Made by a program: the position numbers and the translations under genes
The notes under the pieces: model-generated
Told to the model about the DNA's origin: nothing
Databases searched by the model: none
Seen by the model: the letters and a program-made list of their open reading frames with translations, nothing else
In this document: positions 1,039-31,171 of the stretch, piece by piece
Numbering within the stretch: the first letter of the stretch is position 1
How the letters are laid out: each line of letters opens with the position of its first letter
Assembly: GCF_001436215.1 (NCBI RefSeq)
Contig: NZ_AYYP01000029.1
Location: 1-32,808, forward strand
DNA: 32,808 nucleotides
Reading direction: 5' to 3'
Source of the DNA: Ligilactobacillus agilis DSM 20509
Lineage (GTDB): Bacteria; Bacillota; Bacilli; Lactobacillales; Lactobacillaceae

Positions 1039-4000
1039 ATGTTTTCACCCTTACAGGTAATTAGTTCTTATAGTTTGTTGCAATCTGGTTTGAGAATCGA
1101 AGATTATGTTCAAGCGGCTAAAAAATTAGGTTATCAGGCGCTAGCATTAACCGACTACAACGTAATGTATGGGGCGTTGACTTTTTATCAAGCGTGTCTA
1201 CGGGCCAATATTAAACCGTTGGTGGGGATAACACTTCAGCTTACCAGTAGTCAAAGTGATTTAATAACCAGTGATATTGTGTTGCTTGCTAAGAATGCAG
1301 CTGGCTATCAAAATTTGATGAAGCTATCTTCCTTGAAGTTAGCTAAACCTGAAGGAGTCAGTCTAACTTTAGAGCAAGTTGATGCTAATTTAAGTGATTT
1401 GATAGTAATCCTGCCCCCAAACTTGACTTATCTTATCGCTAGCAATCCTGCTGCTAATTTAACCTGGCTTACAGCTTTAAAGGCACGAGTGGCGTCTAAT
1501 TTGTACTTTGGAATTGAAGCCAATTTTGATGAATTTAGCAAGCAAACGCTTATCAAATTGGCCGAACAGCTAGACTGCAAATTAGTGGCAAGTTTGCGAG
1601 TTGAATACCTTGAACCTAAAGATATTTTACAGCAGGAAGTCTTGGCGGCACTAAAGAGCGGGCGTACCTTAAAAGAAGCAGATTTACAAGGCAAGCAAAG
1701 GGGTAAACATTACTTGAAGAGTCCTACCCAGGTTGAAGCAGAGTATGAGCAAGCAGGGCTTACAGAAGCTTATGCTAATGTTGCCGAGCTTTGCCAGCAA
1801 GTTGATTTGCAGCTAGAATTTACTAAAACAAAATTGCCCCATTTTAAGACGCCAAGTGGCTTAGATTCGGAAAGTTACTTACGTAAGCTGTGTGTAGAGG
1901 GATTGGACGTTAAGCTTAGAAAAGCGGCTGTTAGTGCAACTAAACCTTACTTTGACCGGCTGGAATCTGAGTTGGCTGTTATTAATAAGATGGGGTTTGA
2001 TGATTATTTCTTGATTGTGGCCGATATTACTAACTTTGCTCGGAGTCAAAAAATTATGCTAGATCCCGGGCGGGGGTCGGCAGCTGGTTCGTTAGTGGCA
2101 TACAGTTTAGGGATTACGGACGTTGACCCGTTAAAGTACCAGTTGCTATTTGAACGCTTTTTAAATGAGAAGCGGGCGCAGATGCCAGATATTGATATCG
2201 ATTTGCCGGATAATCGTCGGGATGAAGTCATCAGTCATTTAAAAAAACAGTATGGTCAAAACCACCTGGCACAAATTATTACCTTCGATACGTTTGGGGC
2301 GCGGCAGGCGCTCCGGGATGTTGGCCGGGTGTTAGAACTTAATAGCTTTGAGTTAGAAAAATGGAGCCAAGCGATTCCGCGGGTCTTTAAAATTAGCTTA
2401 AAAGAGGCTTATGAACAGTCTCAAAGCTTGCGCAACTTAGTAAATGATAGCCCGAAAAATAAATTGTTGTTTCGTCTAGCTTTAAGTTTAGAAGGGCTAC
2501 CAAGACATTACTCCAAACACGCTGCGGGAATAATTTTAAGCGATACAGACTTAGTTGAAACAGTTCCGTTGCACATGGGAAATGACGGAATCTGGCTTAG
2601 TCAGTATGCTAAAAAGCAGGTAGAAGCGGTTGGACTTTTGAAAATTGACTTACTTGGGTTGCGAAACCTTAGTCTATTGGAACAGGCTTTAAGCTTAGTT
2701 AAGCGGGGATATCAAACGGAGCTTGACGTTAGGCAGATTGATTTAAATGATGAGCTGACCTTACAATTATTTGCTCGTGGTGATACGGCCGGAGTTTTTC
2801 AATTTGAATCGAGTGGAATTCGCAATGTGTTACGGAAACTAAGACCTACTTCTTTTGAAGATATTGCCGCAGTTAATGCTTTGTACCGTCCGGGTCCGTT
2901 AGCTAATATTGACGAGTTTATTGCTAGAAAGCATGGTCTCAAGCAGGTTACTTATCCTAACGATAATTTGAAGTCAATCTTGGGCTTGACTTACGGAATC
3001 ATTGTTTACCAAGAACAGGTTATGCAAGTGGCTTCGACAATGGCAGGCTTTACTCTAGGAGAAGCCGATATTTTGCGCCGAGCAATTAGTAGCAAGAATG
3101 ATCACCTAATTTTAGAGTTGAAAGACCAGTTTATCAAAGGTGCTAAAAAGTTAGGCTATGAGGTTTCCGTAGCTAAGCAGGTTTACGATTACATTGAACG
3201 GTTTGCTAACTACGGTTTTAACAGGTCGCACGCTGTTGCTTACTCTAAGTTTGCCTTTCAGCTGGCTTACATTAAGGCGCACTACCCAGCTGCTTTTTAC
3301 ACGGCCTTATTCAATTCACTACTAGCTAGTCCGAAAATAAGAGAGTATGTGATAGAAGCTAAGAAATACCAAGTTAAGGTTAAGGGCCCAAATATTAATT
3401 TGAGTCAAAAAGGTTTTACCTTGCGCCAAGGCCAAATTTACTTTGGATTAGCAAGTATTAAAAAAATTCGCCGGGATTTTTGTGACGCCATCCTGTTGGA
3501 AAGACGACAAGCTGGTAATTACAAGGGCTTTCAAGATTTCTTAGAAAGGATTCCTGAAAAATACCGGCAAGCGGCTTTGATTGAACCACTAATCTATGTG
3601 GGAGCCTTTGACGAGTTTGAGCCTAATCGTAAGCAGTTACTGACTAACCTAGAAAGTCAGTTAAAGACCATTGAGCTGACCGATAGTCCAGTATTGCAAT
3701 CCTTGCTAGAAACGGTCGACCGTCCAGTAGAGCCCTTTAGCCTAGAAGAACAACTAGATAAAGAAAGTGAGTATTTGGGGCTAGTTATCTCGGGGCACCT
3801 GCTTCAAAAATATAGTTGGATAAAAACCTTTTATCCAGTAACAGCCGTTGGCGATTTACAAGTAAACATGAAAACACGCCTATTAGTTTACATCCGGAAA
3901 ATAAAGGTAATTAGAACCAAAAATAATGAAGAAATGGCCTTCTTGACCGGAAGCGACGAAAGTGGTGAAGTAGACTTGACCCTTTTTCCCACCGAATTTA

Positions 4001-4463: not shown

Positions 4464-5438
<975 letters not shown>

Positions 5439-5536
5439 ACATTGCTTGTTAAAAGCGTAATTATTATTTATCACTGGTAATAACAGACATAAACGTCAGT
5501 TTTACATGTACTATTTTTAAAGGAGAGACTTTACTC

Positions 5537-7297
5537 ATGAAAAAGACCAAGATTGTAAGTACACTTGGACCAGCTAGTTCAGACTTAGACACAATCGTTA
5601 AATTGATTGAAGCAGGTGCTAACGTATTCCGCTTCAACTTCTCACACGGTGACCATGAAGAACACCTTGGCCGGATGAACTTAGTTCGTCAAGCTGAAAA
5701 AGTTACTGGTAAGATGGTAGGTATCATGCTTGATACTAAGGGTGCCGAAATTCGGACAACTGTTCAAAAAGAAGGTAAGATTCACTTCAACATTGGTGAC
5801 GAAGTGCGGATTTCAATGGATGCTTCTATTGAAGGTACAAAGGAAAAGATTGCTGTTACTTACCCAGGTTTATACGATGATGTTCACGAAGGTGGCCACG
5901 TATTATTCGATGATGGTTTGATCGACATGCAAATCGAAAAGAAAGATGAAGCTACTAAGGAATTAGTATGTAAAGTCTTGAATGAAGGTACACTTGGTTC
6001 ACGTAAAGGTGTTAACGCTCCTGGCGTTTCTATCAACTTGCCTGGTATTACTGAAAAAGACTCAGATGACATTCGTTTCGGTTTAGACAACGAAATCAAC
6101 TTCATCGCTGCTTCTTTCGTTCGTAAGCCACAAGACGTTTTAGATATTCGTGAACTTTTAGAAGAAAAGCACATGGAACACGTGCAAATCTTCCCTAAGA
6201 TTGAATCACAAGAAGGTATCGACAACTTTGATGAAATCATCAAGGTTTCTGATGGTTTGATGATTGCCCGTGGTGACATGGGGGTTGAAATCCCAGCAGA
6301 AAACGTGCCTTTGGTACAAAAGAGCTTAATCAAGAAGTGTAACGCACTTGGTAAGCCAGTTATCACTGCTACTCAAATGCTTGACTCAATGCAAGAAAAC
6401 CCACGTCCTACACGTGCCGAAGCTTCTGACGTTGCTAACGCTGTGTTTGACGGTACAGATGCAACTATGTTATCTGGTGAATCTGCAAACGGTGACTACC
6501 CTGTAGAAGCTGTTGCAACTATGGCTCGGATTAATGTTAAGGCTGAAAATGCTTTACGTCAACACCGTGAATTCTCATTAAACCGTTTCGACAAGACTGA
6601 TGTTACTGAAGCTATCGGTCGTGCCGTTGCTGAAGCAGCTAACAACTTGAACATCAAAGTTATCGTTGCTGCTACTAAGTCTGGTCACACAGCTCGTATG
6701 ATTTCTAAGTACCGTCCAGATGCTGATATCTTAGCTGTGACATTTGATGACCGTACTCGTCGCGGTTTAGCTATCAACTGGGGTGTTTACCCTGTGATGG
6801 CTGAAGCTCCTGCTTCAACTGATGAAATGTTTGCCTTAGCAACTGAAGAAGCTAAGAAGGCTGGCTTTGCTAAGGAAGGTGACTTAATCTTGATCACTGC
6901 TGGTGTACCAGTTGGTGAAAAGGGTACAACTAACGTTATGAAGATTCAATTGATTGGTTCTAAGTTAGTTGAAGGTCAAGGTGTTGGTGACGAAACAGTT
7001 ATCGGTAAGGCTGTTGTTGCTACATCTGCTAAGGAAGCTGTTGAAAAGGCTGAAGAAGGTGGCGTTTTAGTTGTGAAGACAACTGATAAGGACTACTTAC
7101 CAGCTATCGAAAAATCAGCTGCTTTAGTTGTTGAAAACGGTGGTTTAACATCACACGCTGCTGTTGTTGGTATCTCAATGGGTATCCCTGTTGTTGTTGG
7201 TGCCGCTAACGCAACTGAATTAGTAGCTGACGGTGAAGTTATCACAGTTGACTCACGTCGTGGGATTGTTTACCACGGTGCATCTAACGCACTTTAA
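5537..7297 (+). CDS. pyk: Pyruvate kinase with C-terminal PEP-utiliser domain
   Basis: Pyruvate kinase converts PEP and ADP to pyruvate and ATP, the last step of glycolysis. The N-terminal barrel opens with KKTKIVSTLGPASS, contains DTKGAEIRT, the active-site IARGDMGVEIP segment and the TQMLDSM segment. At 586 residues it is longer than the E. coli enzymes because of the extra C-terminal domain found in bacilli and lactobacilli, ending with NGGLTSHAAVVG and GIPVVVGA (about 532-558), which resembles the PEP-synthase mobile domain. Codons are strongly biased (GGT, GAA, AAC), as expected for a highly expressed gene. AAAGGAGAG precedes the ATG. A strong terminator follows, closing the pfkA-pyk unit. 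Confidence 0.97.
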   Translation: MKKTKIVSTLGPASSDLDTIVKLIEAGANVFRFNFSHGDHEEHLGRMNLVRQAEKVTGKMVGIMLDTKGAEIRTTVQKEGKIHFNIGDEVRISMDASIEGTKEKIAVTYPGLYDDVHEGGHVLFDDGLIDMQIEKKDEATKELVCKVLNEGTLGSRKGVNAPGVSINLPGITEKDSDDIRFGLDNEINFIAASFVRKPQDVLDIRELLEEKHMEHVQIFPKIESQEGIDNFDEIIKVSDGLMIARGDMGVEIPAENVPLVQKSLIKKCNALGKPVITATQMLDSMQENPRPTRAEASDVANAVFDGTDATMLSGESANGDYPVEAVATMARINVKAENALRQHREFSLNRFDKTDVTEAIGRAVAEAANNLNIKVIVAATKSGHTARMISKYRPDADILAVTFDDRTRRGLAINWGVYPVMAEAPASTDEMFALATEEAKKAGFAKEGDLILITAGVPVGEKGTTNVMKIQLIGSKLVEGQGVGDETVIGKAVVATSAKEAVEKAEEGGVLVVKTTDKDYLPAIEKSAALVVENGGLTSHAAVVGISMGIPVVVGAANATELVADGEVITVDSRRGIVYHGASNAL

Positions 7298-7334
7298 TTC
7301 CCAGGTATTAGGAAAGACTAACAATCGTTAGGTT

Positions 7335-7366
7335 AAGCCCTCCGCTTATGGTGGAGGGCTTTTTTA
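7335..7366 (+). terminator. Terminator of pyk
   Basis: AAGCCCTCC pairs with GGAGGGCTT around GCTTATGGT and is followed by a T-run. Confidence 0.85.
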
Positions 7367-7475
7367 TCGTAATTTGAGTAAGAAAGGTACGGCGATAAGC
7401 ATATTGAAAGGCGGAGTGCTAAAGGGATAGGGTAATAAAAAAGAAAAAATTCATCGTTTGAAAACCTTTACCTAC

Positions 7476-7504
7476 TTGACAGCTGGTCAAAAAACGATTA
7501 TCCT
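7476..7504 (+). promoter_or_regulatory. Promoter of the glyQS T-box leader
   Basis: A perfect TTGACA (7476-7481) and TATCCT (7499-7504) are separated by 17 bases, just upstream of the T-box leader. Confidence 0.75.
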
Positions 7505-7511
7505 ATCTTTG

Positions 7512-7724
7512 TTTAATAAATGAAGCGTTGATGAAAGAGGGCTATCTTTCAAAAAGGTAAGCGAGCCTGGGATGGTGAAAGCAGGTACTTTTAAAAGGTA
7601 GTTGGCGCTTTTGGAGCTTTACGTAATGAAGTTGCTAGGCAAAACTAGAAGTAGGGTGGAACCGCGATTTGGAAAAGTCGTCCCTATGTGACCATTATTG
7701 GCGTCACATGGGGACGACTTTTTG
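7512..7724 (+). promoter_or_regulatory. Glycine T-box leader with terminator
   Basis: The leader senses uncharged tRNA-Gly and controls read-through into glyQS. The near-consensus T-box AGGGTGGAACCGCG is at 7653-7666. The stem I distal loop is suggested by GGGATGGTGAAAGC (7569-7582). The likely specifier codon is GGC (7604-7606) in TTGGCGCTTTTGGAGC, which fits glycine and the downstream gene. The terminator is a long hairpin (AAGTCGTCCC...GTGAC with GTCAC...GGGACGACTT, about 7674-7720) followed by Ts. Its 5' side can compete with T-box antiterminator pairing. Exact helix borders need folding, but identity is secure. Confidence 0.92.
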
Positions 7725-25403: not shown

Positions 25404-25432
25404 AGTGCTTGCCTTTAGGCGGGCACTTTTTT
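25404..25432 (+). terminator. Terminator of ribU
   Basis: AGTGCTTGCC pairs with GGCGGGCACT (10 bp, two G-U) around TTTA and is followed by a T-run. Confidence 0.8.
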
Positions 25433-25636: not shown

Positions 25637-27277
25637 ATGGCTTCGTTTGTTGCTGAAGTAAACAATGATTTCTCACCAGATATTGACAAAAATGAAAACG
25701 TGCTCAAGGACGTTTGGGAGCAGTACGAAAATGTAATCGTCCAGAGTCTAATTACATCTTTTGGCTTGGATTTTATTCAAGACCAACATGGGGGAGATGT
25801 TGATACTATCCATAATGTTAGACAAATAGGCAAAGACCCCAAGATGCACTACAAAAATGCTCAAAATGCAGCGGATTATGCTAATCGGGGGGCGTACGAT
25901 TCAAGAAAGTATCACCAAGATCCACGTTATATCACTATCAATAGAAAGATGAGTGAAAACAAGAAGAACGGCACCCTAACAGATGCGTATACAGGTAAGG
26001 GGGTGGCCCGTAATGCCAAGATGGATTTAGACCATGTTATTTCTGCTAAAGAGATTCATGACGATCCAGGGCGCATCTTAGCTGGAGCAAAGGGAACGGA
26101 CCTTGCAAATACTAAAGATAACCTCAAGCCTACGGATAGGAGCATCAATCGCTCCATGCAAGCTAAGGATAAAGAAGAATACTTGCAAACTTGGGCGGAG
26201 AAAGGTCCCCAAAGGCAGGCTAGGATTAATGAATTACAAGCCAAATCTTCTCTATCCGATAAAGAACGCAAGGAATTGAATAAACTAGAGAAGCAAGAAG
26301 AAATTAATCCGAATAAGGTGCGGGCTGAAGAACAACACGCAAGAAAAGCCTATGATAGACAAGTTGCATTGGATTATTATACGAGTTCAAAATTTTTAAC
26401 GGCTACAGTTAAAGGTGCCGGTAGTCTCGGTGCAAAAATGGGGCTGCGTCAGGCAGCAGGATTGGTACTTTATGAAGTATGGGCTGCGGCTAAAGCAGAA
26501 CTGCAATCGCTGGCACCTGGCAAAAACTTAAAAGAGATGTTGGAAGCAGTTGCTAATGGAATTAAAAAGGGGGTTACAAACGCCAAGGAAAAGTACCGGG
26601 AAATCCTGGCTAAATTTGGCGAAGGTTTCTTAGCGGGGGCCTTGTCAAGCCTGACAACCACTATCTGTAATATCTTTTTTACCACGGCCAAAAATGTTGT
26701 TAAGTCGATTCGGCAAATTTATGCATCGGTTGTGCAAGCAGGAAAGGTCTTATTATTCAATCCCGATAACCTTGAGCTAGGAGAGCGGATAAAAACTGCG
26801 ACAGTAATTTTAGCTACGGGGGCGAGTGTCCTTGTCGGGTCAGCCGTTGGTGAATTAATTGCTACGACGCCTATAGCTGCTACTCCAATAGGACCAACTG
26901 TGATTACATTTTGTTCATCATTAGTAAGTGGACTGCTTTCCTGCACGCTACTTATTTTCTTGGACAGGAGCGATTTTATCAATAAACTGATAGATAAATT
27001 TTACCTGGGGCTTCAAGGAGTAGTAGCTGATTATAAAGTAGCTGCCGATGCCTTTGAAGAATTGGCCGCCAAATTGAGCCAGATTGATATTGCCAGCTTC
27101 CGGGCTGAGACGGCAAAATACCAGCAACTAGCTTTAAAGATTGAAACTGCCAAGTCAGAAGCAGAACTTAACACAATCTTGCTTGCTGCTTACGAGACCT
27201 TTGACATTAAAATTCCTTGGAAAGGTGATTTTGACAGCTTTATGGGCGATCGGTCAAATCATTTGGTATTTGAATGA
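25637..27277 (+). CDS. HNH-nuclease-like protein with C-terminal membrane segments
   Basis: A 546-residue protein of no family I can name. The N-terminal half has an HNH-like motif: DAYTGKGVARNAKMDLDHVI (117-136), with D130, D132 and H133, then DNLKPTDRSINRSM with N162 and N171, the D-H...N...N pattern of the beta-beta-alpha metal finger. No paired cysteines are present. Residues 175-245 are charged and helical. The C-terminal half has hydrophobic stretches at about 328-350, 388-412 and 419-442, likely membrane-inserting, then a helical tail. A nuclease motif joined to membrane segments suggests a DNA-cutting effector held at or acting with the membrane. GGAGGTGG gives a strong binding site. 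Its stop overlaps the next start (ATGA). It is richer in AGG, AGA and ATA codons than the housekeeping genes, consistent with transfer. Confidence 0.7.
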   Translation: MASFVAEVNNDFSPDIDKNENVLKDVWEQYENVIVQSLITSFGLDFIQDQHGGDVDTIHNVRQIGKDPKMHYKNAQNAADYANRGAYDSRKYHQDPRYITINRKMSENKKNGTLTDAYTGKGVARNAKMDLDHVISAKEIHDDPGRILAGAKGTDLANTKDNLKPTDRSINRSMQAKDKEEYLQTWAEKGPQRQARINELQAKSSLSDKERKELNKLEKQEEINPNKVRAEEQHARKAYDRQVALDYYTSSKFLTATVKGAGSLGAKMGLRQAAGLVLYEVWAAAKAELQSLAPGKNLKEMLEAVANGIKKGVTNAKEKYREILAKFGEGFLAGALSSLTTTICNIFFTTAKNVVKSIRQIYASVVQAGKVLLFNPDNLELGERIKTATVILATGASVLVGSAVGELIATTPIAATPIGPTVITFCSSLVSGLLSCTLLIFLDRSDFINKLIDKFYLGLQGVVADYKVAADAFEELAAKLSQIDIASFRAETAKYQQLALKIETAKSEAELNTILLAAYETFDIKIPWKGDFDSFMGDRSNHLVFE

Positions 27278-27552
27278 TGTTTAAATGTAGTTCTTGTGGC
27301 GAGTGTTGTCGCAATCTTGATAAATCGCCCTTATATAAGGATTTAGATAGAGGGGATGGCACTTGTAAATATCTGGTAGGAAATAAGTGTTCCATTTATG
27401 ATGAACGTCCCTTGTTTTGCAGGGTTGACAAGTGTTATGAGCTTTTTTTTAAGGATCTTTACACCAAAGAAGAATATTATGAGATGAATTATAAGGTATG
27501 TAGGCAATTACAAGCCAAGGCATTAAAAAATAAAAAACAGGGAGGAAATTAA
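27274..27552 (+). CDS. YkgJ-type cysteine-cluster protein
   Basis: A 92-residue protein with nine cysteines: C5, C8, C11, C12 in FKCSSCGECCRNLD, then C31, C39, C49, C54 and C76. The CxxCGxCC opening and the later NKCSIYDERPLFCR segment are the YkgJ/UPF0153 pattern, proposed to bind zinc or an iron-sulfur cluster. The biochemical role of the family is unknown. The start lies in the stop of the HNH-like gene (ATGA overlap), so the two are translationally coupled and probably made together. It could be a redox or metal sensor, or a maturation factor for a partner. Confidence 0.8.
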   Translation: MMFKCSSCGECCRNLDKSPLYKDLDRGDGTCKYLVGNKCSIYDERPLFCRVDKCYELFFKDLYTKEEYYEMNYKVCRQLQAKALKNKKQGGN

Positions 27553-27553
27553 G

Positions 27554-28420
27554 ATGCCATTACCACTTATTATTGGCGGGTTAGCCGCCGTTGCGGGTGT
27601 TGCTAGAATTCGTTCAGGGGGGATTACGGCAGGATTAGCCCCTGGAATTTATGGTGGTATTAAAATGAAGGAAGCAAATGACACCATGAATCTTGCTAAG
27701 CAAAAGCATGAACAAGCCATTAACCGCTGTGAAGAACAGAACAAGGAAACAACAGCCTTGATGGACTCCATTGTTAAACGTGAATTGAAAATAAGGGCTA
27801 GCTTTGAAACTTTTTCGAATATAATTGAACAGATTCAAGACCGGCCTGATTTTAAGAATATGAAATTTGGGCGGATAGATCTCCCACAATTTCAAGCCGA
27901 TGAGTTAAGGGAAATCTCGAGTGGAGTAGCTATGGTATGTAGTGGGATAGCACTTGAATCTATCCTTTTAGGAGGTACTGGTCTAGCTGTCGGAAGCGTT
28001 ATTTTAAGCATAACCGGTTCAAGGTTATCCAAACAAGCTGATGAAGCTTATAGGCAGGCTTTAAGGACTGAAGAAAAGGTCGAAGAAATCGTTGGTTATC
28101 TTAAAGAGTTAACTACTGTGGCCAAAAACTTTGAGCGAGCCTTAATGGAAGTTGAAACTCAATATAGAAGACGGTTGGATAGGTTGGATGAAATTGTTAA
28201 TTATTATGGAAAGAAAAATTGGAACGATTTCACTAGAGATGAGAAGGAAACGATAGAAAATACCGTTTTGCTTGTAGGAATACTGTATAAAATGCTTAAG
28301 ACTAAGTTAAAGATTGAAAATCATGCTGAGGATGGTATCGATATTGTAAATAAATACGAAGTACGTTCCGTTGTTTTAAAAGCAGATCAAGTTTTGGACA
28401 AAGTTCGGGCTGAGTTCTAG
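27554..28420 (+). CDS. Coiled-coil protein with central hydrophobic hairpin
   Basis: A 288-residue protein I do not recognise. The N-terminus (PLPLIIGGLAAVAGVARI, 3-20) and a Gly-rich stretch to about 36 are hydrophobic. Residues 38-98 are a predicted coiled coil. Residues 123-155 (SGVAMVCSGIALESILLGGT and onward) form a long hydrophobic, small-residue-rich segment. Residues 158-215 form a second coiled coil. The plan of long amphipathic helices around a hydrophobic hairpin resembles helical pore-forming or membrane-remodelling proteins, but that is inference from shape. CAGGGAGG gives a strong binding site one base after the YkgJ-type stop. AGG and ATA codons are frequent. Confidence 0.65.
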   Translation: MPLPLIIGGLAAVAGVARIRSGGITAGLAPGIYGGIKMKEANDTMNLAKQKHEQAINRCEEQNKETTALMDSIVKRELKIRASFETFSNIIEQIQDRPDFKNMKFGRIDLPQFQADELREISSGVAMVCSGIALESILLGGTGLAVGSVILSITGSRLSKQADEAYRQALRTEEKVEEIVGYLKELTTVAKNFERALMEVETQYRRRLDRLDEIVNYYGKKNWNDFTRDEKETIENTVLLVGILYKMLKTKLKIENHAEDGIDIVNKYEVRSVVLKADQVLDKVRAEF

Positions 28421-28450
28421 TAAAAGTTAAGTATCTAGGAGGAATGGTTA

Positions 28451-28849
28451 ATGTTTTTAGGAAAGTTATCTGGAAAAGAAAAAGAAGCTTTTATTAGTTT
28501 AAGTGTTCATGCGTCAAAGTCAAATGATGTCTTTGCCCAAGAAGAAAAAATGATGATTCATGAATACTGTAAGGAAATGGACATTCCTACTTGGAATGAA
28601 GAAGACATCCTTTCAATTGATGAAATTGTTGCGGTGTTTAAGAGCTCGGAGCTACCTATTAAAAAGATTGTTCTATTAGAAACACTCGGGCTACTATATT
28701 CAGATGGGACTGTTGATGGAACCGAAAAGGAATTTATCAAGGAATACGCAGAAAAAATTGGCTTAACGGAAGATATTATTGAAAAACAAACAGTTGCAAT
28801 CAAAGAATATCTAGATGCTCTAAAGAAAGTTACTGAAGCTATCGCATAG
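28451..28849 (+). CDS. TerB-like protein
   Basis: A 132-residue soluble, acidic, helical protein. The second half reads LLETLGLLYSDGTVDGTEKE followed by FIKEYAEKIGL, matching the TerB fold core (A..DG.vd..E...i), and the first half (LSVHASKSNDVFAQEEKMMI) is a weaker copy. TerB-like domains bind metal in tellurite-resistance proteins and occur in several phage-defence and stress operons linked to membranes. AGGAGG precedes the ATG, 30 bases after the previous stop. It ends the operon before a bidirectional terminator. Confidence 0.7.
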   Translation: MFLGKLSGKEKEAFISLSVHASKSNDVFAQEEKMMIHEYCKEMDIPTWNEEDILSIDEIVAVFKSSELPIKKIVLLETLGLLYSDGTVDGTEKEFIKEYAEKIGLTEDIIEKQTVAIKEYLDALKKVTEAIA

Positions 28850-28863
28850 TTTAAAAGCTAAAT

Positions 28864-28904
28864 AAAAAACGAGGTTGGAAAAATTTTTTCCAGCCTCGTT
28901 TTTT
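28864..28904. terminator. Bidirectional terminator after the four-gene operon
   Basis: AAAAAACGAGGTTGGAAAAA and TTTTTCCAGCCTCGTTTTTT pair along nearly their whole length. It separates the operon from the convergent regulator remnant. Confidence 0.88.
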
Positions 28905-28905
28905 G

Positions 28906-29896
28906 CTAGTCTTCATAATTAGCCAGCATCCTTTGAATGGTGGCTTTCATCTTGTCACGAAACTCAGGTGGACTAACGATGGTCACCATGTCTTTTTGAC
29001 TCAAAAACCACATTAAGGCCCCAGTATCATAAGTGGTTACTTCCAGTAAGAAGGTTTGCTCGTCAATTTTTTTAATGGTTTTTGAGATGGGAAACTTGTC
29101 CAAAGCAGCTTCCACAATCCCGGTGTATTTAAATTGGACAGTAATTGGTGTACCGGGATACATGAGCTGAATCTTCTTTTTTTCGTCCCCTAAGTCAAAA
29201 GGAATTCGCTGATCGTCAGGAATCTTTTGGTCAGAATACTTCCAATTTAAAATTCGGTCTAACCGGTAGATGATGTTCTTTTTAAATTGGGGGTTGTAGG
29301 ACACGATATAAAAATAATAATCCGAAAAGGTCAAGGCCACCGGGGCGATGGTGCGAGTAATATACTTATGCCTTTGGGTGAGGTATTCAATTGTGATAGT
29401 TTCTTTTTGCAAGATTAACTTGGAAAAAAGTATAGATTGCCGCCAAAAGTTGCTTGTCCTTAAGGTGTTTTTGTTCAACGTAGCTAGCCAGTTCACTGCG
29501 GATGATGGGTTTGATGTCTTTTTGGTCTTGGGGGGTAAGTAAGGCCACTAAGGAAGCGACTAAAGGTTCTAACTCCTTTTTCGCTAGGCTGCGGCTTGCT
29601 AGTAAGACCTTGATTAAGACCAAGCACTGGGCCTTACTTAAGCCAAGGCCATTGCTATTTAGGTAATAGTTATGTTCTTTGGCGTCATATTCTAGGTTAT
29701 ACTTATTAAAATAGTCGCTTAAAAAATTTCGGATACTAGCAAAGTCTCGTTGGGCGGTGCGGGCGTCAATTTTAAACTTATCTTGGTGGTCCTTTTTAGC
29801 CAGGCGCTCCCCCGAAGCTAAAAGCCGGTAGAGATAAAGCTGTCTAGTAGCAGCGTTTGCTTTTTCGATAGTTATCAGTCCTTTCAATAAAGTCAC
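28906..29896 (-). pseudogene. WYL-domain regulator, frameshifted
   Basis: Two overlapping minus-strand frames form one HTH-WYL transcription regulator of about 329 residues. The N-terminal frame (from 29896) has the winged HTH (RQLYLYRLLASGERLAKKDH, then FKIDARTAQRDFASIRNFL). The C-terminal frame (to 28906) has the WYL core, ITIEYLTQRHKYITRTIAPV and YYFYIVSYN...IIYRLDRI, and the C-terminal extension. The break is at a run of six As at 29424-29429: dropping one restores TFSKLILQKETITIEY. The total length, 330 codons plus one base, fits a single inserted base. WYL proteins sense ligands and often control defence or stress genes. A sequencing error in the homopolymer is possible. The exact start is uncertain, as the GTG at 29896 lacks a clear binding site. 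Confidence 0.8.
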
Positions 29897-30086: not shown

Positions 30087-31171
30087 ATGAAAACACTAGT
30101 AGCCCTCTGTCCATACGTGGCTTATAGAAACGAACAACTTTTAAAAGACTGTGTCTTAATCTCCTATAGCTTCACCAACCTGGGTTACCAAGTTAAACTA
30201 GTCACAGCTAAAAAAGAGGAGCTCACCTACTTAAAATACCTCCCCAAACTTGAGGTTGACTACGCTCCCTTGTTACCACGTGAGCAATGGGCTGACTACC
30301 TGGTCGATTATCTTAAAAATTATCAAGGCAAAATTGACCGGCTCTTTTGCTTTGGGCTTTATCCCGACTATGGGAAGGCGATTAACTATTTTAAACAACA
30401 CTTTGATGGTCAGGTAATTTTAAAACTTGATGCTAATCCATACTGGATGGATATTATTAACTACCAAGAGTCACCTCAACAAGATATGATTAAGGCTTGT
30501 GACCTAATTAGCTGTGAGGGGCGGACGATGCAAAGTTATCTGGCTAAGAAGTGGAAGCGGCCGATTGACTTGATTAGAAATGGTTTTCCAATTAAAACAT
30601 TTAACCTGGAGCTTAGCTTTGACATAAAAGAAAATATCATCTTAAACGTGGTCCGCCAAGATGAAAATAAAAATACGAAGGTATTAGTTTCAACCTTTGC
30701 TAAACTAGCAGCTAGTTTTAGTCGGTAGCTATGATTCTAACTTTGAGTTCTTGGTAAAGTCTTACCAGCACAAAAATCCCCACTTAAAAAACAAATCCAG
30801 TTAGTCGGTCCAGTTGCCGATAAAGCTAAACTAGAAAACTACTATGCTAGAGCCAAAGTTTTTGCGCTGAGTTCTTATTCAGAAGGCAGTCCCAATGTCA
30901 TCGGCGAAGCGTTACGCAATGGTTGTTACATCATCACGTCTAAAATTTCTGTTTGCAAGATACTTTTGCTAAGGGTGCAGGGGCTAGTTTTGATCACGGC
31001 GATTTGGCAGCCTTCGAAGCTAACATGCGTCAGGTAATGTCAGAGCCCCAATTAAGTCAGTGTGCCTTTGAGTTAAACCGAGCCTACGCCTTAGCCGAAC
31101 TCCCTTACGAAAAACAAGTCTTACACCTAGAAAGTTTATTGAAAGTTAGGGGGCAAATCAATGGAAAATAA
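30087..31171 (+). pseudogene. Family 4-type glycosyltransferase, several frameshifts
   Basis: Three reading frames together give one GT-B fold glycosyltransferase. The first (30087-30728, 213 residues) is the N-terminal Rossmann domain, from MKTLVALCPYVAYRNEQLL to the interdomain NIILNVVRQDENKNTK strand. The next pieces carry VGSYDSNFEFLVKSYQ, then QIQLVGPVADKAKLENYYAR, AKVFALSSYSEGSPNVIGEA (the E-x7-E donor-sugar motif) and LRNGCYIITSK. The last (30953-31171) holds AKGAGASFDHGDLAAFEANM and the C-terminal helix. At least three frame changes (near 30720, 30790 and 30950) make it non-functional. GTGAGG precedes the ATG. It overlaps the next decayed gene, so the pair was once an operon, probably for surface glycosylation. 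Confidence 0.85.

Follow-up and report, generated by a model that had tools for sequence, protein, structure and literature searches.

Zorya type II combines the ZorAB membrane motor with an HNH protein, ZorE, and the locus described here would work in a similar way, with a membrane part and an HNH-like effector. This locus is a four-gene operon, P1 to P4, in a 32,808-nucleotide stretch of Ligilactobacillus agilis DSM 20509 (GCF_001436215.1, contig NZ_AYYP01000029.1, positions 1 to 32,808), the whole of which is hereafter called the window. None of the four operon proteins matched a Zor model (ZorA/ZorB), and the closest relatives are two PADLOC entries, PDC-M40 and PDC-M09, to whose PDC-M40B and PDC-M09A families P1 and P3, respectively, belong; PDC systems are, according to passages of PMC11811056, unpublished candidates of Payne et al. 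We read the operon, with a probability of roughly 0.53, as a chromosomally inserted, modular, membrane-tethered system with exchangeable effectors, most likely directed against phages. The parts of the operon, all on the + strand, are as follows.

25637-27277, +: P1, 546 residues, an HNH-like head, a hydrophobic helical middle and a C-terminal tail; PDC-M40B family (open reading frame).
25955-26188, +: HNH-like core of P1, residues 107-184 (D116, D132-H133, N162, N171), from invariant columns and a structure model.
26999-27274, +: C-terminal tail of P1, residues 455-546, proposed P3-docking module, from a match in genome G006 and a tail profile.
27274-27552, +: P2, 92 residues, CxxCxxCC (YkgJ-type), putatively metal-binding (PF03692).
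27554-28420, +: P3, 288 residues, coiled coil with a hydrophobic hairpin, short-hairpin form; PDC-M09A family (PADLOC profile).
28451-28849, +: P4, 132 residues, TerB-like, below the Pfam TerB cut-off, with a relative in locus L018 above it.

P1 matched the PADLOC model PDC-M40B over nearly its full length (residues 19-511, 4.9e-36), as a member of the B-gene family of PDC-M40. The locus differs from PDC-M40 in that its genome lacks PDC-M40A (model PDLC04629, 0/1), that the four operon proteins, the part of the genome searched for PDC-M40C, gave no match to it at E<=1, and that P2, P3, P4 and a WYL-domain regulator stand in place of M40A/M40C. Among the scanned neighbours of P1 loci, PDC-M40A was matched by one protein and PDC-M40C by two, and locus L044 carries the family's own B gene (4e-281), apparently as the prototype PDC-M40. 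On this Klebsiella plasmid (L044:6451-9863), an SMI1/KNR4 gene, PDC-M40B and a coiled-coil gene lie together, with a TIR-domain gene in the same stretch. With PDC-M09 the locus shares P3, which matched PDC-M09A in two stretches (5.5e-7; six P3 relatives, 1.9e-92 to 6.1e-18), and a C-terminus like that of PDC-M09B in two of the eight P1 proteins scanned. It differs in the head of the partner, which is HNH-like here and of a D..QxK type in PDC-M09B; window P1 itself falls short of the M09B model, PDLC04409, which finds nothing in the genome (G000), and P1, as far as sequence comparison tells, is linked to PDC-M09B solely through the tail of its relatives.

Other systems are more distant. An earlier note on this DNA, made from the letters alone, had known of no named defence system with this composition, and for named, published systems that statement stands, although P1 and P3 were already PADLOC candidates; our literature search found no paper naming PDC-M40 or PDC-M09. 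It had also set Shango aside for its missing partners, rightly: Shango and other TerB-containing systems share a TerB-like component with the operon, but the four proteins gave no Sng match, and the unit holds neither an ATPase nor a helicase. Ter stress-response systems have a TerB domain and membrane partners in common with it and differ in that no other Ter protein occurs within the four genes. Relatives of P3 weakly resemble the LeoBC model of the LeoABC bacterial dynamins (PMC4159319), at E values down to 1.7e-7 (window P3 0.003), whereas no GTPase domain was found in P3 by Pfam and the match is confined to the hydrophobic/coiled-coil part.

The finding that carries our reading is that P3 occurs with different effector heads, of which the HNH-like P1 is here called class I, a D..QxK effector class II and a third effector type class III. 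The C-terminal 80 residues of two of the eight scanned P1 proteins matched the C-terminus of PDC-M09B (L108, 2.1e-13; L023, 1.7e-7), and residues 455-545 of window P1 matched an otherwise unrelated class III partner in the same-genus genome G006 (7.2e-12); P3 was therefore searched on its own. It was found in 19 of 266 genomes of the order, and its neighbour was an HNH-like P1 in two (G000, G157), a PDC-M09B-like D..QxK protein in seven (G092, G093, G196, G312, G225, G252, G036), the third type in five (G006, G039, G296, G139, G226), a 185-residue protein in two (G138, G107) and a masked frame in one (G131); two weak P3 matches (G141, G155) were left out of this typing. All ten D..QxK effectors gathered contain a D-x(n)-Q-x-K motif, by a pattern written after seeing them, which in sequence resembles that of PD-(D/E)XK nucleases; five of them searched against Pfam gave no nuclease match, and among eight class II and III effectors only a glycine-zipper exceeded its cut-off, in the L186 effector. 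The class III effectors paired with P3 (L167, L170, L172, L175, L177, L182, L183) share a conserved NHH..SL.H.P..LGLFFSILDQF-like region, and the three searched (L167, L172, L182) had no Pfam family over cut-off. An exchange is seen in locus L186, from the same taxonomic class as the window, where a P4-family TerB protein (1.6e-17), a YkgJ protein (2.1e-28) and P3 (2.8e-16) lie beside a D..QxK effector, with TerB (2.3e-8) and CxxCxxCC (1.4e-6) both over their Pfam cut-offs: it is the window's P4-P2-P3 chassis with a different head in place of P1.

Many effectors of the other two classes have tails related to that of P1, by which the heads would be docked on P3. A hidden Markov model (HMM) built from 19 HNH-type tails was searched in 1663 frames, the 70 best matches reaching E 3.6. 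It recovered the left-out L022 P1 (2.3e-11) and matched eight of ten class II effectors (2e-7 to 7e-3) and two of seven class III effectors (L167, 1.5e-11; L182, 3.7e-4); none of the ten AAA-type or five hairpin-type P1 proteins was among the 70 best, where L043 stood at 1.7. By this profile a common tail holds for most D..QxK effectors and two of class III, the rest being a likeness by eye. Across 36 systems, P3 similarity followed tail similarity in 393 cross-class pairs (rho 0.734, without correction for host relatedness), and none of 2000 within-class shuffles (mean 0.073, standard deviation 0.120) reached that value. A near-zero correlation between P3 and the heads was discarded as evidence, since scores between heads from different, unrelated classes amount to noise. 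Read most simply, the sequence similarities mean that heads are swapped whereas each tail keeps to its matching P3.

The earlier note had proposed asking whether its four genes co-occur in other genomes, and they recur together far outside this one, in a family that is rare and patchy; the refuting case that it had named, homologues never occurring together, is thus not what was found. With the own genome included throughout, P1 was matched in four of 100 near relatives (G006 by the tail only), 11 of 395 genomes of the order (PADLOC model), and 13 of 398 genomes of the class and four of 398 of the phylum (own profile), the phylum-level matches outside the own genome being partial. Relatives occurred in 70 of 72,556 plasmid records and seven of 50,697 phage records, all of the latter Aeromonas phages of ~260 kb, and of 74 pattern matches in an IMG/VR scan with P1, one was a relative. 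That the family lives mainly as phage cargo was rejected on these seven phage records and the single IMG/VR locus.

Of 49 stretches, 48 held P1, and removing five duplicates (L035, L114, L115, L120, L124) left 43 distinct loci (L018 and L002, from L. hayakitensis, are the same sequence, as are L026 and L003, from L. murinus). P3 adjoins P1 or sits one gene off in 21 of the 43; ten carry a coiled-coil transmembrane protein and an AAA ATPase, five a one-family hairpin protein upstream (L021, L040, L041, L042, L045), two another coiled-coil protein downstream, of PDC-M40C type (L043, L044), and five no such partner (L028, L029, L030, L112, L123). The actinobacterial proteins in L028, L029 and L030, which lack the partners sought, are shorter (362-479 residues) and match P1 chiefly in the HNH-like head. 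The ten AAA-linked loci (L024, L025, L027, L113, L116-L119, L121, L122) encode a sister form of P1 with a different tail, followed by the coiled-coil transmembrane protein and the ATPase; a glutamate replaces the catalytic-like histidine in L119, and the AAA partner has AAA and AAA_lid_6 domains in L025 and is weakly IetA-like in L010.

Ten of the 21 P3-type loci have P2; among the 22 others, which include some short stretches, it was not seen. The order is WYL-P1-YkgJ-P3 on a C. difficile plasmid and P3-P1-YkgJ on plasmids of the Proteobacteria Duffyella, Klebsiella, Acetobacter and Photobacterium, with a WYL gene upstream in the Klebsiella copy; on an E. coli plasmid the WYL gene precedes the pair and the record ends within the YkgJ gene. 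The P3-P1 pair also occurs in the ~260 kb Aeromonas jumbo phages (L034, L035, positions 4949-7545), a case of a phage-side member that may serve inter-phage competition or as a counter-measure. Three kinds of TerB protein over cut-off were found in the vicinity of P1 or P3: the P4 family (L018, L186), a 139-residue protein between P1 and P3 in L022, and, upstream of P1 in L021, a natural fusion in which a hydrophobic hairpin is followed by TerB in one protein (2863-3555, 1.6e-5), whose relatives in L041 and L042, the two scanned, had no Pfam match. Judged from these domain assignments, the system has taken up TerB in no fewer than three forms. P1 and P3 are a recurrent pair across phyla, with P2, a TerB protein and WYL as recurrent accessories.

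The head of P1 is best called HNH-like. The earlier note had seen D132-H133, N162 and N171 together with C-terminal hydrophobic segments; both were recovered, the segments at residues 330-444 and the DH...N...N/H motif of the HNH superfamily conserved across 39 aligned relatives including the window. D116, N162 and N171 are each present in 39/39, D132 in 37/39 (E in the other two) and H133 in 38/39 (E in L119). An AlphaFold2 model had a mean predicted local distance difference test score of 73.7 and was confident in the head (block means 79-94 for residues 61-250), where strand 129-133, strand 163-167 and helix 168-174 follow the order expected of a beta-beta-alpha site. An HNH-like fold is accordingly backed by the motif, its invariance and the predicted strand-strand-helix order, not by any homology search, and we do not call the head HNH. 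Pfam searches with P1, P3 and their relatives gave weak matches below cut-off only, PDB sequence profile searches with P1 and P3 found no family, and NCBIfam and PHROGs gave weak matches only. The annotation 'cobalamin adenosyltransferase' carried by some P1 relatives was rejected, with no such Pfam match in the best 25 of 35 weak families.

Profile comparison, which the earlier note had recommended together with structure comparison, was also applied to the other three proteins. P2 passed the CxxCxxCC cut-off (PF03692; 1.1e-5, 26.5 bits against 23). P4 had been called TerB-like; the window copy stays under the TerB cut-off (PF05099; 2.4e-4, 21.8 bits against 24.4), and its L018 relative is over it (2e-7, 31.7 bits). 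P3 has hydrophobic segments at residues 1-21 and 121-156, in agreement with the coiled coil around a hydrophobic hairpin described before. A model of the L018 relative placed long helices at 20-84 and 205-273 around a hydrophobic stretch at 121-209, at very low confidence, and Foldseek of this model gave no match at E<=0.001, the best being a chemoreceptor at 0.027. The best PDB sequence profiles for P3 (0.004 to 0.02), a designed filament and viral fusion proteins, are taken as coiled-coil noise. Window P3 aligns to its profile in two separate parts (positions 1-124 and 179-339) and lacks 54 of the columns, and a glycine-rich block is absent in three of 38 P3 proteins (window, L107, L186); L108 failed the block pattern, holds a diverged block on reading and is not counted as lacking it.

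As claimed from the letters, the four + strand genes are tightly linked, with all frames open, a 4-base overlap between P1 and P2, a 1-base gap between P2 and P3 and a 30-base gap between P3 and P4. Of the strong ribosome binding sites assigned to every gene, those of P1, P3 and P4 are good, and no clear Shine-Dalgarno sequence was found at the start of P2, which also overlaps the P1 stop; its translation is therefore probably coupled to that of P1. The surroundings are as follows.

25404-25427, +: ribU terminator, upstream boundary (terminator scan).
28864-28904, no strand: palindrome between P4 and the WYL gene, probably a bidirectional terminator (inverted repeat I2).
28906-29496, -: WYL-domain regulator, C-terminal part (WYL and WCX), in one frame (Pfam).
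29387-29896, -: the same regulator, N-terminal part, in another frame overlapping the first piece (WYL family profile).

The unit had been described as bounded by an inverted repeat and a bidirectional terminator. The terminator was retained as the 20-nt palindrome, a fair bidirectional one that the terminator scan missed because its loop is too short for that scan; among eight inverted-repeat pairs, no other clearly flanks the unit. Codon use unlike the core genes held for P1 and P2, which score under all 17 core genes of the window, and not for P3 and P4, which lie inside the core range. The core genes (ribU, rluB and others) were named, in both analyses, by reading translations and not by family search. 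When the stretch after rluB/ribU was read in 15 same-genus genomes, some of which hold relatives elsewhere, neither P1-P4 nor the WYL gene, of which the longer piece was compared, was present there; the operon is therefore a chromosomal insertion, at a site that is variable, as had been suggested.

The convergent gene at 28906-29896 (- strand), overlooked in the earlier note, is a WYL regulator split across two overlapping frames. Its C-terminal piece exceeded the Pfam cut-offs for WYL (6.7e-8, 32.9 against 21.8 bits) and WCX (1.5e-6), the N-terminal piece alone had no Pfam match, and both matched a family derived from the P1-adjacent gene of L031, a C. difficile plasmid (1e-58 for the C-terminal and 5e-56 for the N-terminal piece). 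A WYL gene lies near P1 in seven of the 21 P3-type loci, window included, and WYL domains have been predicted to bind ligands and to regulate defence systems (passages of PMC4012209). Downstream of it, a glycosyltransferase-like gene looks broken, in frames 30087-30728 and 30953-31171 (from reading the translations only).

The neighbourhoods of P1 loci are supportive of a defence role. At 1e-10, 117 neighbours matched 41 PADLOC families in a scan that has no per-locus statistic and whose control is core DNA of one genus; the matches listed include PDC-M40A, PDC-M40C, BnzA (2.3e-182), TmtA, PDC-S11, PDC-S14, PDC-S04, PDC-M41A, a type II restriction enzyme, mad2, mad3 and type IV DinG, and the gene upstream of P1 in L018 matches PD-T4-1 (6.6e-16). 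The 109 core-region control proteins matched 26 families, among those listed DpdF, other helicase-type models and PsyrT (eight proteins), Leo models (eight) and BrxH (six), with single matches to mad3, mad8, AriA, SngC and DinG; the two groups of eight are taken as housekeeping helicases and GTPases.

A membrane-linked nuclease defence, which the earlier note had favoured, remains the best reading of an operon whose genes co-occur far away, and defence and nuclease activity are what we infer for it; of the contact-dependent delivery raised alongside, no sign turned up, and no test was aimed at it. In this model, WYL would keep expression low, and P3, with its long helices and hydrophobic hairpin, would lie within or against the membrane, keeping the effector attached through its tail. 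Infection might then disturb the membrane at entry, or change a ligand or metal read by the TerB protein, the Cys-cluster protein and WYL. Such a phage-induced change would release or activate the head, and the HNH-like head might cut nucleic acid near the membrane, belonging either to the phage as it enters or, in abortive infection, to the cell itself. More tentatively, at somewhat less than even odds, the loci may form one polymorphic membrane-anchored immune family, in which a constant P3 docks interchangeable heads (HNH-like, PD-(D/E)XK-like and a third type) through a common tail that specifies the partner class, optional TerB, Cys-cluster and WYL proteins set the trigger, and PDC-M40, PDC-M09 and the AAA-linked P1 systems are branches. 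We lowered our confidence in both readings because the tail was found in only two of seven class III effectors and not in L186.

Several results pull against a modular anti-phage system. The PDC names of PADLOC mark candidates rather than functions established by test. For the HNH-like head, neither Pfam nor PDB sequence profile searches gave a match, and Foldseek of the P1 model gave none at E<=0.001, a Cas9 standing at rank 23 with a not meaningful E of 2.3. Against 21 genuine HNH domains fetched with PF01844, hhalign set D132-H133, N162 and N171 of the 39-row profile in HNH register with a score of 9.0 (60 column shuffles, <=5.1; three other profiles, 1.1 to 4.5) and a probability of only 0.4%, and a 10-row P1 profile scored 6.7 over 14 columns, out of register. 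The tail HMM misses five of seven class III effectors (E 0.16 to 3.4, the noise level), finds the L178 tail at 0.12, hardly better than unrelated frames starting at 0.14, and does not have the L186 effector among its 70 best matches; a linked pair that was co-inherited would also give the P3-tail correlation. In the window, the WYL gene has no single open frame and P3 lacks the glycine-rich block, which together could mean that this copy is inactive. The 70 plasmid and seven phage records with P1 relatives also make plasmid or inter-phage competition a possible role.

The strongest of the rivals, which we consider unlikely though worth weighing, is that such a system is in decay in the window and that the copy left there no longer has a function. 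The WYL gene split between two frames, the 54 profile columns missing from P3 and the apparently broken glycosyltransferase-like gene downstream would all fit decay; however, all four operon frames are open, P1 retains D116, D132, H133, N162 and N171, and the split of the WYL frame might stem from an error in the 72-contig draft. The short-hairpin P3 need not be damage either, and the missing block was weakened as proof of decay, L107 and L186 also being without it.

A toxin-immunity or addiction module is somewhat less probable still. Here the head would be a toxin that P3, or a coiled-coil partner, neutralises, stabilising a plasmid or island, with defence secondary. The 70 of 72,556 plasmid records, the constant partner beside varying heads and the SMI1/KNR4 gene directly upstream in the PDC-M40 form of L044, a family known for immunity proteins, are in its favour. 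However, some loci lie on chromosome-sized contigs (L106, 4.6 Mb; L107, 2.9 Mb), P3 is a hydrophobic hairpin protein rather than a small soluble antitoxin, and WYL, YkgJ and TerB accessories would be unusual for addiction modules. An improbable last candidate is a Ter-like envelope or metal-stress module, in which TerB and the Cys-cluster protein sense a metal or oxidant and P1/P3 remodel the membrane: the three TerB forms and the CxxCxxCC proteins near P1 or P3 suit it, as do Ter systems proposed to act against phages and toxic compounds (passages of PMC7824862), but the four-gene unit, the part searched, holds no other Ter protein, TerB and YkgJ come and go beside the more constant pair of nuclease-like head and P3, and the catalytic-like residues are near invariant.

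The exchangeable-effector system remains our preferred account. The families of P1 and P3 are already known as unpublished PADLOC candidates; the union of the two, the swapped heads, the common tail and the TerB, YkgJ and WYL accessories appear to be new, none of them having been found in print in the sources covered. Our literature search recognised no paper as describing the P1-P4 composition among its listings and in passages including those of PMC11514479, PMC11811056 and PMC9035990, and the main text of DefensePredictor (PMC13092281) contains YkgJ, TerB and WYL zero times. If our reading is true, it would merge two unpublished defence candidates into a single modular family governed by a simple rule that can be tested: the choice of membrane partner lies in the tail, and the kind of damage in the head. 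The scattered annotations as 'cobalamin adenosyltransferase', 'chemotaxis protein' and YkgJ that stand together on plasmids and jumbo phages would then be explained too, and TerB and CxxCxxCC proteins would gain a concrete context.

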